Shown here: piece after piece, positions 38,764 to 44,812 of the stretch
How positions within the stretch are numbered: position 1 is the stretch's first letter
Layout of the letters: every line of letters starts with the position of its first letter
Made by a program: the position numbers and the translations under genes
Notes under the pieces: generated by a model
The model's input: the letters and a program-made list of their open reading frames with translations, nothing else
What the model was told of the DNA's origin: nothing
Database searches by the model: none
Origin: Trueperaceae bacterium
Lineage (GTDB): Bacteria > Deinococcota > Deinococci > Deinococcales > Trueperaceae
Length of the DNA stretch: 48,793 nucleotides
Assembly (NCBI GenBank): GCA_019454765.1
Contig: JACFNR010000006.1
Location: 49,911-98,703 of the forward strand
Direction: 5' to 3'

Positions 38764-39531
38764 GTGCGGCTCGGTCACAACGTGGGCCACGGCTCGGACG
38801 TGGGTCGTGTGCGGCCATTCAACGAGGACTTCCACCGTGTCTGGAGCTTCCCGCTCGACGGCGGTGATCTCACGTTGCTGGCGGTCGCGGACGGCATGGG
38901 CGGCGCGGCGGCCGGCGAGGTCGCGAGCAAGCTCGCCACCGAGGTGCTCGACGAGTCGTTCTCCCGCTACGTCGAGGAGCTGCGGGCCCACCGGCCCGTG
39001 GTGGGGGTCGGCAGCCTCATCGACAAGGCCATGCGGCTCGCCAACCGGCGCGTGTACGCCGCGGCCATCAAGCAACCGAACCGGCGCGGAATGGGTAGCA
39101 CGCTCACGTGCGTGGCCATCCTGAAGGGGCGCGCCTACCTGGGTCACGTGGGCGATTCGCGCGCCTTCCTGGTGCGCGGCAGCAAGATCTACCAGTTGAC
39201 CAAGGACCACTCGTGGGTGGAGGAGCAGCTCGAGAAGGGCCTCCTGAACGAGGAGGAGGCCGAGAGCCACGAGTGGCGCAACCTGATCACGCGCGTGCTC
39301 GGCACGCGGCCGCAGGTGGCGCCCGACGTGATCGAGCTGGCCATCGAGCCTGGCGACGTGCTCGTGCTCTCCACCGACGGGCTGCACGGCCTGGTCAAGC
39401 CGGAGGAGATACTCGCCGAGATCAGGTCGAACTCCGACCGGCAGTTGAACGTGGAGATGCTCATCGCCCTTGCCAACGAGCGTGGCGGGCCGGATAACAT
39501 CACGACAGTCGTGTTCGGGGTGGAGCCATGA
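38764..39531 (+). CDS. PP2C-type Ser/Thr protein phosphatase
   Basis: A 255-residue soluble PPM phosphatase, the probable counter-enzyme of the kinase that follows. The metal and phosphate motifs are complete: RPFNEDFHRVW, VADGMGGAAAGEVAS, GMGSTLTCVAIL, GHVGDSRAFLVRG, LSTDGLHGLVKPEE and GGPDNITTVVFGVEP. The start GTG at 38764 follows a TAGACT box by 6 nt. Its stop overlaps the kinase ATG as ATGA (39528-39531), so the two are co-translated. Confidence 0.94.
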   Translation: MRLGHNVGHGSDVGRVRPFNEDFHRVWSFPLDGGDLTLLAVADGMGGAAAGEVASKLATEVLDESFSRYVEELRAHRPVVGVGSLIDKAMRLANRRVYAAAIKQPNRRGMGSTLTCVAILKGRAYLGHVGDSRAFLVRGSKIYQLTKDHSWVEEQLEKGLLNEEEAESHEWRNLITRVLGTRPQVAPDVIELAIEPGDVLVLSTDGLHGLVKPEEILAEIRSNSDRQLNVEMLIALANERGGPDNITTVVFGVEP

Positions 39532-41579
39532 TCGTCTTGTGGGTCGTCGGGGCGCTCCTGCTCGCCCTGCTGCTGCGCGCCCCCGCCTGGCTGCTCGGGG
39601 CGCTCCTGTCGCTCGCCGTCCTCCTCACCGTGGCCGTGCTGTGGCTGGGCGGGGCGGAGCGCGCCATGGCGCCGCTGATCCTCTCAGCGCTGGCGCTCGG
39701 CCTCCTCGTGCCGGCGACCGTGCAGGTCGCCAAGAGCAGCCGGGTCGCACCGGCCAGCCGCAGGCGCCGGCAGGTCGGCGAGGCGCGCGCCGCCACGAGC
39801 GGGTCCTCGCCGCAGTTCGACGCGGCCGACGTGCCCGGCTACACGCTGCTAGAGAAGGTCGGTTCGGGCGGCATGGCCAGCGTGTACCGCGCCAAGCGCC
39901 TGTCGGACGGTCAGGTGGTGGCGCTCAAGATCCCCATGGAGCAGTACGTCGCCGACGCCAAGTTCATCAGGCGCTTCCACCGGGAGGCGGAGGTGGCGCA
40001 GCGCCTGAACCACAAGAACATCGTGAGCACCTTCGAGCACGGCGCCGTGGGCGTGCAGCACTACATGGTCATGGAGTTCGTCGACGGGCGCTCGCTCGAG
40101 GGGTACATCGAGGCGCACGAGCTCGACATCCCGCTGTCGGTGGAGATCATGCAGCTCGTCGTGCGCGCGCTGCAGCACATCCACTCCGCCGGGATCATCC
40201 ACCGCGACATCAAGCCTGCCAACGTGATGATCACCCGCGGCGGCATCAGGCCAGCGGACGGCAAGGACGGCAGCCGCCTCAGGCCCGACGCGGTCAAGCT
40301 CATGGACTTCGGCATCGCTGGCGGCAAGGTGCTGTCGCGCCTCACCATGACGGGCGCGCGCGTCGGCACCCCCGTCTACATGTCGCCGGAGCAGGCGCGC
40401 GGACTCAAGATCGACCACCGCTCGGACATCTACTCCCTCGGGCTGGTGTTCTACGAGATGCTCACCGGCCAGACCGCCTTCAAGGGCGGGTACGAGGCCA
40501 TCGTCCACCAGCAGATCTTCCAGACCCCGCCGCCGCCGAGGCAGGTGGAGTTGCGGGTGCCCAAGGCCCTCGATCAGCTGGTGATGCGGATGATCGCCAA
40601 GGACCCCGACGACCGGCCCACCCTCGACGAGGTGTACGACACGCTGCAGAGCGTCGACCTGGAGGTCGACGAGTCGGGCAGCCTGCCCACGCGCCTCGTC
40701 GTGACGGTCTCGGCGCGCCAGGGCGTGTTGCGGATCCTCGATCCCGAGGGCAACCTGCACAGCTCCGTGGGCGACATCGGGGTGGGCGAGGGGAACTTCT
40801 CGGCGGCGCCACTGTCGGTGGGCGTGGACTCGGGCGGCGACCTGTTCGCGGCGATCTTCGAGTACCGGGTGGGCCAGCAGAGCCACAAGATGATCCACAA
40901 GCTGGCGCCGGACGGCAGCGTGAAGCTTTCCTTCGGCGCCTACGGCATGCAACCGGGCGAGTTCCTCTACCCGGTGGCGCTGGCGGTGGCGCCCGACGAC
41001 ACGGTGTACGTCCTCGACAGCGAGACTCACCTGGTGTCGCGCTTCACCAACGACGGGCGTTACCTCGCCAGCTTCGGGGGGCCGGGCAAGGGGCACGGGA
41101 CGTTCAACGACCCGCGCGACCTGGCCGTCGACCTGAAGGGGAACGTATACGTGCTGGATTACGGCAACCGTCAGGTGCAGCGCTTGGGCGAAGACGGTGA
41201 GTACCAGACGCGCTGGGCGTTCAAGGTGTCGGCCGAGCAACCCGGCCTGCGCCTGCTAGACGGCATGGCGGTCGACGCCGATTGCAACGTGTACATCTCC
41301 GACGCGGGCGCCAGCAAGGTCCGCAAGGTCACGGCCGACGGCCGCGTGGGCGTCTCGTTCGCCCTCGACGCACGCCAGGGCGAGGTCACGGACACGCTCG
41401 TCGACCTGGGCGTCGACGACTCGGGTTACCTGTACGCGGGGCGCCGCGGCGGTCACCTCATCAGGAAGTTCGATCCGGCGGGTCGGCTGCTCGAGACCTT
41501 CGAGACGTACGCCCCGCTCGTGCAGATGATGGTCGACGTGAGGGAACGCAGCGCGCCGCTCGTCGACACGGCGAGTTGA
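39528..41579 (+). CDS. Ser/Thr protein kinase with N-terminal membrane domain and NHL propeller
   Basis: A 683-residue PASTA-less bacterial Ser/Thr kinase. Residues 2-16, 21-40 and 47-66 are hydrophobic, giving two or three N-terminal membrane helices. The kinase spans about 105-375, with G-loop VGSGGMASVY, catalytic Lys134 (VALKI), HRD Asp227 (IIHRDIKPANVM), DFG Asp260 (MDFGIAGG) and MSPEQARG. From about 395 to 670, repeats such as GEFLYPVALAVAPDDTVYVLD, FNDPRDLAVDLKGNVYVLD and LLDGMAVDADCNVYISD form an NHL-type beta-propeller. Because no helix lies between kinase and propeller, both are on the same, presumably cytoplasmic, side. PP2C is coupled upstream. The ligand is unknown. Confidence 0.92.
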   Translation: MIVLWVVGALLLALLLRAPAWLLGALLSLAVLLTVAVLWLGGAERAMAPLILSALALGLLVPATVQVAKSSRVAPASRRRRQVGEARAATSGSSPQFDAADVPGYTLLEKVGSGGMASVYRAKRLSDGQVVALKIPMEQYVADAKFIRRFHREAEVAQRLNHKNIVSTFEHGAVGVQHYMVMEFVDGRSLEGYIEAHELDIPLSVEIMQLVVRALQHIHSAGIIHRDIKPANVMITRGGIRPADGKDGSRLRPDAVKLMDFGIAGGKVLSRLTMTGARVGTPVYMSPEQARGLKIDHRSDIYSLGLVFYEMLTGQTAFKGGYEAIVHQQIFQTPPPPRQVELRVPKALDQLVMRMIAKDPDDRPTLDEVYDTLQSVDLEVDESGSLPTRLVVTVSARQGVLRILDPEGNLHSSVGDIGVGEGNFSAAPLSVGVDSGGDLFAAIFEYRVGQQSHKMIHKLAPDGSVKLSFGAYGMQPGEFLYPVALAVAPDDTVYVLDSETHLVSRFTNDGRYLASFGGPGKGHGTFNDPRDLAVDLKGNVYVLDYGNRQVQRLGEDGEYQTRWAFKVSAEQPGLRLLDGMAVDADCNVYISDAGASKVRKVTADGRVGVSFALDARQGEVTDTLVDLGVDDSGYLYAGRRGGHLIRKFDPAGRLLETFETYAPLVQMMVDVRERSAPLVDTAS

Positions 41580-41628: not shown

Positions 41629-42261
41629 TCAGAGCCCGGGGATCAGGCCGATGATGCGGGAGAACAGCAGCTCGAAGAACCGCATGAGTCGCGGGATGAC
41701 GCCGGTGGCGCTCAGCACGAAGAAGAAGACCATGAAGCCGAGCACGCCGAACTGCGCCACCTGCATGATGACGCGGCGCACGTCGGGGTGACCCCACGCC
41801 AGGGCGGCCCGCCCCATGTCGAGCGGCAGTAGCGGGAAGAGGTTCACCACCGCGTGCAGGAGCGAGTAGCTGGCGGCCACCTCGAAGGCGAGGTCGAGCA
41901 CTGGGCTGTTGAGCGAGCGGAAGAGGGCGGCGAGGAGGAGGCTCACGAAGGCGACGACAAGGTAGGCGCCGATGCCGGCGAGCCACACCCACGCCTCCGC
42001 CCTGCCGCGGCCGCGGTAGTTGCGGGAGTTGACGGGAACCGACCTGGGCCACCCGAAGCCGAGCAGCAGCAGGAACAGGACCCCGAACGGGTCGAGCTGG
42101 CGTTGCGGCTCGAAGGCGGCGAAGCCGGCCAGGCGCGGGCTGCGGTCGCCCAACCGCTCGGCCACGAGCGCCTGCACGATGTTGTGGAAGATCAGCGCCA
42201 TCAGCATGACGATGGCTGCGATGACCAGGATGCTGGGTTGGCTGATGAGCCTCAAGAACAT
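41629..42261 (-). CDS. site-2-protease-like membrane protein with destroyed HExxH
   Basis: A 210-residue polytopic protein with the M50/site-2-protease layout: LDPFGVLFLLLLGFGWPRSV then PVNSRNY match the family's LDPxG...GWAKPVPVN, and VVNLFPLLPLDMGRA (Asp148) corresponds to the N-x-x-P-x-x-P-L-D-G/x-G motif. The zinc motif is altered: where HEFAHAxxAxxLGD is expected it reads H26-N-I-V-Q30 then ALVAERLGD. Glu is Asn and the second His is Gln, so proteolysis is unlikely. Comparable inactive homologues act as binding or trafficking proteins. The ATG at 42261 has GGAG upstream, 4 nt from the cca-type stop, so it is the distal gene of that operon. Confidence 0.82.
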   Translation of the reverse strand: MFLRLISQPSILVIAAIVMLMALIFHNIVQALVAERLGDRSPRLAGFAAFEPQRQLDPFGVLFLLLLGFGWPRSVPVNSRNYRGRGRAEAWVWLAGIGAYLVVAFVSLLLAALFRSLNSPVLDLAFEVAASYSLLHAVVNLFPLLPLDMGRAALAWGHPDVRRVIMQVAQFGVLGFMVFFFVLSATGVIPRLMRFFELLFSRIIGLIPGL

Positions 42262-42265
42262 CGCG

Positions 42266-44812
42266 TCACTCCAGACCGCCGGCGTGGCGTTCGGCGCTCA
42301 CCAAACGCCTCGCAAGGTCGAGTTCCTCTTCGAAGGTCGAAACCCGGTGCTCGGCGCGGGCGCGGGCGACTTCGTCCAGCACGTGCCCGATGCGGGGTCC
42401 CGGCCGCAGGCCCAAGGCTACCACATCGCTTCCACGCAGCTTCCGGCGGGGCGGGGCGGTCTCGAGCCGTTCGAGGCGCAGAGCCAGCTCCGGGTCGATG
42501 GCGCGCAGCAGCCAGCGGGCGGCCGGGTCGAGGGCCTCGAGTTCCTCGTCGCGCAGCGCCTCCGGCCTGCCCTGGTGCGTGGGGCGGAGGGCAGGCCGAA
42601 GCACGCGCAGTACCCGCTCCACGCTCACGAGGTGGCGCCTGGGCCAGTTGAACTCGTCCACGTGCGCCTGCAGCTCCGCCTCGTCGACGCCGACCATGAG
42701 GCCGAGGAGGTACGCCTCGCTCGGAACCGGTCCGGCCTCGCGCAGGGCGTCGAGGGCCGTGGCCAGTGCGAGCGGGTCGAGCAGGCCCGTGGCGCGCGGC
42801 AGCCCGAACATCGCCTCGAGGGCGTGCAGCTCCGTCAGGACGGTCAGCGCCGGCGCGACCCGCGGCTCGTCGAGGGTCAGCTCCAGTTCGGCCCGTAGCC
42901 GGGAGCGACTCACGTTGCCGAGGAAGCGCGGGTCGAGGGCGGCGTTCGCCTGCGCGAGCGTGCCGCGCTCGAAGCGGAAGCCCAACCTGCCGGCGAGCCG
43001 GGCGCCGCGCAGGATGCGGGTGGGGTCCTCGACGAACGAGAGCGGGTGCAGCACGCGCAACTGGCGCGCCTCCAGGTCGGCGGCGCCCCCGAACGGGTCG
43101 ATCAGTTGGTGGGGGAGGGGCTGGAGCCTCAGCGCCAGGGCGTTCACGCTGAAGTCGCGGCGCGCCAGGTCCTTGCGCAGCGAACTCGGGGTGACGGCGG
43201 GGAGCACGCCCGGTCTGGCGTAGGTCTCCTCGCGGGCCGTGGCGAGGTCGAGCATGACGCCGCCGTCGAGGGCGAGCGTGCAGGTGCCGAAGTCGACGTG
43301 GCAAGACAGCGTGCCGCCCAGCCGCGCCTGAAGCCGCATGCCGAAGCTCTCGGCGCTCTCGCCCTCGACGACGAGGTCGACGTCCTTGACGCCCGCGCCG
43401 AGGAGGAGGTCGCGGACGGTGCCGCCCACCAGGTAGAGCGGCATGGCGCCGGCGGTGGCCGCCGCCTCGTCGAGCACCCGCTTCACGCTGTTCGGCAGGC
43501 GCGGCAGCAGCCGGGCGGCGAGGTCGTCGGTCGTGTCCGACCGGTGCCGCGCGCCGATCAGGTCCGTGCGCGTGACGATGCCGACGAGGCGGCCGTCATC
43601 GACGACGGGTATGCGCCCGATGTTGTGGGCGAGGACGAGCGCCTCCAGCTCCGGGAGGGTGGCGCCGGGCGGCGCGCTGACGACCTCGCGGGTCATGAAC
43701 CCGCTGACCTGCGAGTCGGCCAGGCCGAGGCGGACGGCGCGGTCGAGGTCGCGGCGCGACACGACGCCGAGTACCTGGCCCGAGTCGTCGAGGACGGGCA
43801 TCCCGTTGTGCCCGAACGTCAGCAGCTTGCTGCTCGCCTCCGCCACGGTGGTGTGCTGCGTGACGGTGCGCACGGGCGTCGTCATGAGCTCGCGCGCCGT
43901 GAGGGCGGGGGTGGCGTGATGTGCGAGCGCGGCCGTCACCCGCTGCAGGGCCGCCTCGGGCGGTTCGTCGGTCTTGCCGAAGGCGGCGCCGGGGTGGCCC
44001 GCCCCGCCTATCGCCTCCTCGAGGGCGGCAGCGCAGTCGAAGCGCTCGTTGCTGCGCGCGAACACGAGCGTCCGGGCGTCCATGCGCACCGCGGCCACGG
44101 CGGCGTCCGCGCCGTAGAGGTCGAGGAGGTCGTTGACGGTCGCGCTCACGCCACCGACGTAAGGGTGCGTGAAGGCTGCCACCGCCACGGGGCGCCGCGC
44201 CACCCGCTCGAGCCGCGCGTTCGCGAGGAGCGCGTCGCGGAAGGCGCTCTGGGCGGCGTCAAGGCTGGTGTGTGCGAAGCGGCGCACCACCTGCAAGTTC
44301 GCGCCGGCGGCGAGGAGGTGGGCAGCGGCGCGGTAGTCGTCGGCGCGGGTCTGGTCGAAGGTCAGGTTGCCGGTGTCCTCGTGGATGGCCAGGAGGGCGA
44401 GGGTGGCGACGGGCGGGGGGATGACGATGGCGGTCGCCATCAGCTCGCGGGTGAGGAGGCTGGCGGTGGCGCCGATGCGCTCGCTGATGCCGCGCGCCGC
44501 GGCGATGCTCCCGGGCCCCTGCGGGTGGTGGTCGTAGAGCGTGACCGGCACGCGCCCGAGCAGGGCGTCGAACGGGCGGATGCGCTTGGGGTCGTTCGTG
44601 TCGACGACGATGAGCTCCTCGACGGCGCCCTGGTCCACCTGATCCGCGGGGGTGAGGTCGAGCTCGTCGCGGTAGAGGCGCAGGAAGGCGCCGATCTGCC
44701 GGCTGAGCGCGCCCTGGATGGTCGCGGTGGAGCCGGGGTAGAGGAGCTTCGCGAGCGCCAGGCTGGCCAGGGCGTCGAAGTCGGGCTGCTCGTGGGTGAC
44801 TATCAGCCGCAT
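42266..44812 (-). CDS. tRNA nucleotidyltransferase with DHH and CBS domains
   Basis: An 848-residue multidomain protein. Residues 1-310 form a DHH-type domain: THEQPDFDALASL, VVDTND, YDHHPQGPG and LLAIHEDTGN. About 316-430 is a CBS pair (ARELMTTPVRTVTQHTTV, GHNGMPVLDDSGQVLGVVSRR; SGFMTREVVSAPPGATLPE, NIGRIPVVDDGRLVGIVTR). From about 455 comes a class II nucleotidyltransferase head (YLVGGTVRDLLLGAGVKDVDLVVEG, DLARRDFSVNALAL, PTRILRGARLAGRLGFRF). In Deinococcota and Aquifex such proteins serve as A-adding or CC-adding enzymes for tRNA 3' CCA; which is not decided here. A possible oligonucleotide or phosphodiester hydrolysis by the DHH part is unproven. The ATG is at 44812. Confidence 0.9.
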   Translation of the reverse strand: MRLIVTHEQPDFDALASLALAKLLYPGSTATIQGALSRQIGAFLRLYRDELDLTPADQVDQGAVEELIVVDTNDPKRIRPFDALLGRVPVTLYDHHPQGPGSIAAARGISERIGATASLLTRELMATAIVIPPPVATLALLAIHEDTGNLTFDQTRADDYRAAAHLLAAGANLQVVRRFAHTSLDAAQSAFRDALLANARLERVARRPVAVAAFTHPYVGGVSATVNDLLDLYGADAAVAAVRMDARTLVFARSNERFDCAAALEEAIGGAGHPGAAFGKTDEPPEAALQRVTAALAHHATPALTARELMTTPVRTVTQHTTVAEASSKLLTFGHNGMPVLDDSGQVLGVVSRRDLDRAVRLGLADSQVSGFMTREVVSAPPGATLPELEALVLAHNIGRIPVVDDGRLVGIVTRTDLIGARHRSDTTDDLAARLLPRLPNSVKRVLDEAAATAGAMPLYLVGGTVRDLLLGAGVKDVDLVVEGESAESFGMRLQARLGGTLSCHVDFGTCTLALDGGVMLDLATAREETYARPGVLPAVTPSSLRKDLARRDFSVNALALRLQPLPHQLIDPFGGAADLEARQLRVLHPLSFVEDPTRILRGARLAGRLGFRFERGTLAQANAALDPRFLGNVSRSRLRAELELTLDEPRVAPALTVLTELHALEAMFGLPRATGLLDPLALATALDALREAGPVPSEAYLLGLMVGVDEAELQAHVDEFNWPRRHLVSVERVLRVLRPALRPTHQGRPEALRDEELEALDPAARWLLRAIDPELALRLERLETAPPRRKLRGSDVVALGLRPGPRIGHVLDEVARARAEHRVSTFEEELDLARRLVSAERHAGGLE

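Follow-up and report, generated by a model that had tools for sequence, protein, structure and literature searches.

A homologue of the site-2 proteases (S2P, family M50), in which the HExxH zinc motif is replaced by HNxxQ, is carried across the phylum Deinococcota and is probably a kept helper or substrate-holder, not a decaying enzyme. The chances appear about even that this gene, referred to here as A, encodes an ancient non-cleaving S2P paralogue with its pocket still in use, binding or holding a membrane segment. The copy from which the analysis started lies in a window of 48,793 nucleotides, the whole stretch of DNA that was analysed, from the genome of a Trueperaceae bacterium (Table 1).

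Table 1. Location of gene A, its principal motifs and its neighbours within the window
Feature	Position	Strand	Basis
Gene A, S2P homologue with HNxxQ (pseudoprotease), 210 aa	41629..42261	-	sequence, profiles, predicted fold
Codons of H26-N27-I28-V29-Q30, replacing HExxH	42172..42186	-	translation; H, N and Q kept in 102/102 relatives
GFGWPRSVPVN, residues 68-78; counterpart in the active sister family GFGWAKPVPI	42028..42060	-	
Second metal motif NLFPLLPLD, residues 140-148; D148 in 98/99 relatives	41818..41844	-	
Convergent Ser/Thr protein kinase gene with NHL repeats, at the site of B loss in family f1	39528..41579	+	
DHH-CBS-polyA_pol-head tRNA nucleotidyltransferase, immediately upstream of A, 4-base gap, shared operon	42266..44812	-	

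The open reading frame of A is intact at 210 codons, the strand and coordinates first assigned to it are exact, and its translation contains QLDPFG, GFGWPRSVPVN and NLFPLLPLD, the M50 landmarks that had been described as kept. Pfam M50 matched the window protein weakly (15.4 bits, below the cut-off of 27.2), and 26 of the 30 members of the A alignment matched it at E<=1, the best at 2.5e-7. Profile-profile alignment (hhalign) between the A family and the HExxH sister family, referred to here as B, gave a probability of 99.9 and an E-value of 2.7e-36, placing HN..Q over HE..H and the LD pair over the LD of LDG. The AlphaFold2 model of A (mean pLDDT 94.8) has the membrane fold of the S2Ps; its top Foldseek match was the M. 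jannaschii S2P 3b4r (probability 0.97, with an E-value of only 0.12), and the seven best rows from VIA-align were all S2Ps, with Z from 9.8 to 7.3. Homology of A to the S2P/M50 family, settled by the profile comparison with B together with the predicted fold, is therefore regarded as secure despite the sub-cut-off Pfam score. The HExxH zinc motif of an active M50 protease is absent from all 102 A genes, and the metal-ligand Asp of LDG is retained as D148, the window copy reading LDM at a site where Gly is found in 91/99. The claim of the original prediction, that this S2P homologue has lost both the catalytic Glu and the second zinc His, is borne out.

Of 111 Deinococcota genomes searched, 104 gave matches, and genes were assigned to class A or B by profiles with the three columns of the motif masked. 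HNxxQ was present in 102/102 of the A genes so assigned, and there were no close relatives with HExxH at this locus. Sequencing error or a mutation confined to a single species was thereby ruled out as the origin of HNIVQ. Nine genomes lack A (G002, G015, G017, G018, G020, G043, G073, G087 and G100), and eight of them are less than 90% complete. G100, at 96% completeness, has neither A nor a tRNA-nucleotidyltransferase match, a double absence that fits either an assembly gap or the loss of both genes, and in G043 the sole match is incomplete, lies at the edge of a contig and could be assigned to neither class. Separately, two of the 102 A genes, L083 (G052) and L084 (G065), both in family f5, are split by a frameshift; G052 is a single-contig assembly and G065 is of low completeness, and either some Thermus can do without A or these two sequences contain read errors.

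The replacement residues are also those at which the protein has changed least. When 211 sites were ranked by rate over 99 intact A sequences, which have a median identity of 42% between pairs, Q30, N27 and H26 were the three slowest, in ranks 1-3, with further invariant sites close behind, and D148 took rank 8, being kept in 98/99. The intervening residues 28 and 29 ranked 103 and 108 for slowness. A chance occurrence of the motif was excluded by the slowness of H26, N27 and Q30. Synonymous variation was present in the motif codons across the 102 genes (Asn as AAC in 96 and AAT in 6, Gln as CAG in 72 and CAA in 30), which indicates that the constraint acts on the protein. Purifying selection on A is also evident from dN/dS values of 0.07-0.15 across six pairs from four genomes of the window's genus. 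The Asn of NxxPxxPLD is variable in the family (Y 37, N 31, F 27 and H 4 of 99), so the pocket of A is not fully ancestral.

The original prediction missed the HExxH sister gene found downstream of A in most Deinococcota genomes, as well as the loss of that gene from the family to which the window belongs. B is directly downstream of A in 67/102 genomes and absent from 35/102 A loci, and all 67 adjacent copies carry HExxH under the motif-masked profiles. Among 50 pairs for which the distance from the A stop to the B start was measured, it lay between -4 and +16 bases in 47, an overlap or abutment that suggests coupled translation. Adjacent B was found in 3/3 loci of family f2, 2/4 of f3, 10/10 of f4 and 49/49 of f5, the last linked with Thermus, Meiothermus and Calidithermus, and in 3/36 of f1, the window's family, which is linked with Trueperaceae records. 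A search of 39 whole f1 genomes with the B profile gave strong matches in the same three only, and HNxxQ is retained by 33/33 of the B-less A genes of f1. B is thus not the sole reason for the presence of A, being absent from 35 of its 102 loci. The notion of A as merely a subunit of B was rejected, A being kept in 33 B-less genomes.

Where B is missing, the kinase gene is usually found directly after A. In the window, a phosphatase-like gene (PP2C-like by eye) overlaps the start of the kinase gene, the two spanning 38764-41579 (+), and this pair of phosphatase-like gene and kinase gene with C-terminal NHL repeats is kept downstream of A in most f1 genomes. The profile search of the window genome found no B. 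The same genome does encode canonical M50 proteins, whose presence elsewhere the original prediction had left to be checked; there are two, of 357 aa (HELAH) and 421 aa (HELGH), both on contig C32, the C-terminus of the longer being CBS-like by eye.

A sixty-eighth B, with HEYGH, was located in G006 on a different contig from A. B of family f3 is divergent and carries HEYGH (L080:5276-5974(-), L356), in addition to being unlinked from A in G006, and from these sequences the A-B pair is apparently breaking up in f3 as well. A third S2P-like paralogue, apart from A, was observed in 3/39 f1 genomes, at L273:2997-3626(+), L272:3882-4505(-) and L274:2854-3576(-) in G083, G100 and G082, respectively. 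It has neither HExxH nor the metal Asp, reading either HGxxL...PLTG or, with no His at the first motif, QTTG at the second, and looks even more thoroughly inactivated.

The original prediction had described A as the second gene of a tRNA-nucleotidyltransferase operon and the pairing as odd. The operon placement was confirmed by the 4-base gap, and a nucleotidyltransferase match was found in the fetched stretch of 72/101 A-bearing Deinococcota genomes, directly upstream of A wherever positions were printed. In the Thermaceae loci L060 and L078, which have no nucleotidyltransferase, the A-B pair lies amid unrelated genes. The pairing was found not to be odd, as canonical HExxH S2Ps in other phyla also directly follow a DHH-CBS-polyA_pol gene (L165, Desulfacinum; L271, genome G222). 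A class-I W/Y-type tRNA synthetase gene (PF00579) adjoins or lies near the canonical S2P in L165, L262 and L271, and an ScpA gene adjoins it in L267. A link to tRNA maturation was ruled out as the cause of the pairing because canonical S2Ps share that neighbour, and the nucleotidyltransferase reflects inherited operon order, carrying no clue to function.

In an unrooted tree of 64 rows, with eight canonical S2Ps from other phyla as the outside set, A (100/100), B (99/94) and the canonical S2Ps (93/80) each formed one clade. The simplest reading of this topology would be one duplication before the Deinococcota families split, followed by one inactivation. In a named-genome scan with a pattern from the second motif, limited to the best 80 of 509 matches and so short of a full survey of 84,980 species, HExxH was present at 55/55 loci outside the phylum, and the ten best matches read from 279 non-Deinococcota genomes were all HExxH. 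The DNA pattern HN-x-x-QA-x-x-A, run over 390 genomes, matched in 93, including nine hits in eight genomes outside the phylum; a reversed control of the pattern matched in six genomes outside it. None of the eight outside hits whose sequence was inspected fits either S2P profile, and the ninth (G198) has a stop within the matched letters. Outside the Deinococcota, HExxH relatives only were seen in these partial surveys.

In the proposed mechanism, A would have a single origin, no later than the base of the Deinococcota. It would have retained the S2P fold and the GFGW-P-x-P segment together with H26 as first metal ligand and D148 as metal Asp, with the water-activating Glu changed to Asn and the second His to Gln and both changes then fixed. 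The protein would make no peptide-bond cuts, and its preserved pocket would bind and hold a segment within or beside the membrane, in the manner of true S2Ps mutated from Glu to an amide. A precedent is provided by SpoIVFB, in which E44Q abolishes cleavage, yet mutant and wild type form complexes with pro-sigmaK that can be superimposed, and neither complex contains zinc (PMC11486902). On this evidence, holding of the substrate needs neither the Glu nor the metal, and a substrate can be bound with an amide in place of the Glu and with the metal site empty. In genomes with B, the two proteins might form one complex in which A serves in substrate recruitment, in hand-over or as a brake; where B has been lost, A could act by itself or together with either of the two M50 proteases that are left, and stabilise or retain a client. 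That A traps or presents substrates, as was originally proposed from inactive rhomboids, is an inference, and the most economical reading would have A holding a membrane segment uncut, beside B where B exists.

Other explanations bear on the same observations. A may be a regulatory subunit that forms an obligate hetero-oligomer with B and inhibits or activates it through contact, with no substrate binding of its own, and both the adjacency of the two genes in 67/102 genomes and their overlap or abutment in 47/50 measured pairs speak for this, as do iRhom-like precedents among dead intramembrane protease homologues (PMC3149277). However, 33 of the 36 A-bearing f1 genomes have no adjacent B and B-level matches occur in 3/39 f1 genomes, yet H, N and Q are fixed; one would not expect residues of the pocket to be frozen by contact surfaces alone, and such a role seems unlikely. 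The invariance of H26, N27, Q30 and D148 would also be in keeping with a metal site or a new chemistry. In the former case H26, Q30 and D148 would bind metal, and in the latter these residues and N27 would do other chemistry, so that A would sense a metal or be an enzyme other than a protease. This reading is rather improbable: zinc is only uncommonly bound by Gln, although the three S2P metal-ligand positions and N27 are among the eight slowest sites. In another fold, the bacterial pseudoprotease MamO offers a precedent for repurposing with metal binding (PMC4794232).

It is very unlikely that A remains a protease with an unorthodox active site, despite the retained fold, H26, D148 and GFGW-P-x-P segment, because the water-activating Glu is gone in 102/102 genes, the second zinc His is also gone and, in SpoIVFB, the single change E44Q suffices to abolish activity (PMC11486902). 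That A is a decaying relic without function is scarcely credible. The two frameshifted copies would agree with decay, but the selection data contradict it, given the low dN/dS, the presence of A in 102/111 genomes with all but one of the nine exceptions below 90% completeness, and the motif residues being the slowest sites. A relic would be expected to drift at positions it no longer needs, and A appears instead to have frozen them.

The reading of A as a non-cleaving holder of membrane segments can be extended, tentatively and at less than even likelihood, to a new bacterial class of intramembrane pseudoprotease, in which the Glu-to-amide change familiar from laboratory mutants became fixed as a phylum arose. 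The pocket formed by H26, N27, Q30 and D148 would capture segments uncut and hand them to, or shield them from, a co-translated active twin, and in one family A would have outlived the twin as a stand-alone chaperone or sensor. No report of a bacterial S2P pseudoprotease was found in searches of open-access papers, and a term search of a review of metallopeptidase pseudoenzymes (PMC11266112) found no mention of M50, S2P or EGY3. What appears to be new in A, judged from its sequences, is an S2P-family pseudoprotease that is bacterial, phylum-wide and marked by a fixed replacement motif. Dead rhomboids altered views of what intramembrane protease folds can do, and for the site-2 proteases the pseudoprotease case described in the available sources is plant EGY3. 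With A beside an active twin in Thermus and its relatives and alone in f1, the phylum offers a natural experiment on what the fold does without cutting. The question A poses is why the changed catalytic positions are the most constrained residues, and it is testable because Thermus is genetically tractable.

Like the iRhoms and inactive rhomboids, A is a dead intramembrane protease homologue proposed to bind the clients of active relatives. Rhomboids differ in having a serine-protease fold, and we know of no homology between them and A, whose best fold matches in Foldseek and VIA-align were S2Ps. With the small S2P/M50 forms (B-type proteins, 3b4r and SpoIVFB), A shares its predicted fold, motif order, metal Asp, GFGW-P-x-P segment and operon neighbourhood, and differs from them in the change of HExxH to HNxxQ in every A gene, such that proteolysis is not expected of it. 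EGY3, a chloroplast S2P pseudoprotease of plants, is likewise an S2P homologue without the zinc-binding motif that is kept across a large clade and stabilises other proteins (PMC9355673, PMC10978774); it is a plant thylakoid protein, whereas A is found in bacteria, retains D148 and in most genomes has an active sister gene beside it. SpoIVFB E44Q also has an amide at the Glu of HExxH, and its active site continues to hold the substrate (PMC11486902), but it is a laboratory mutant with both His kept, whereas A occurs naturally and no longer has the second His.
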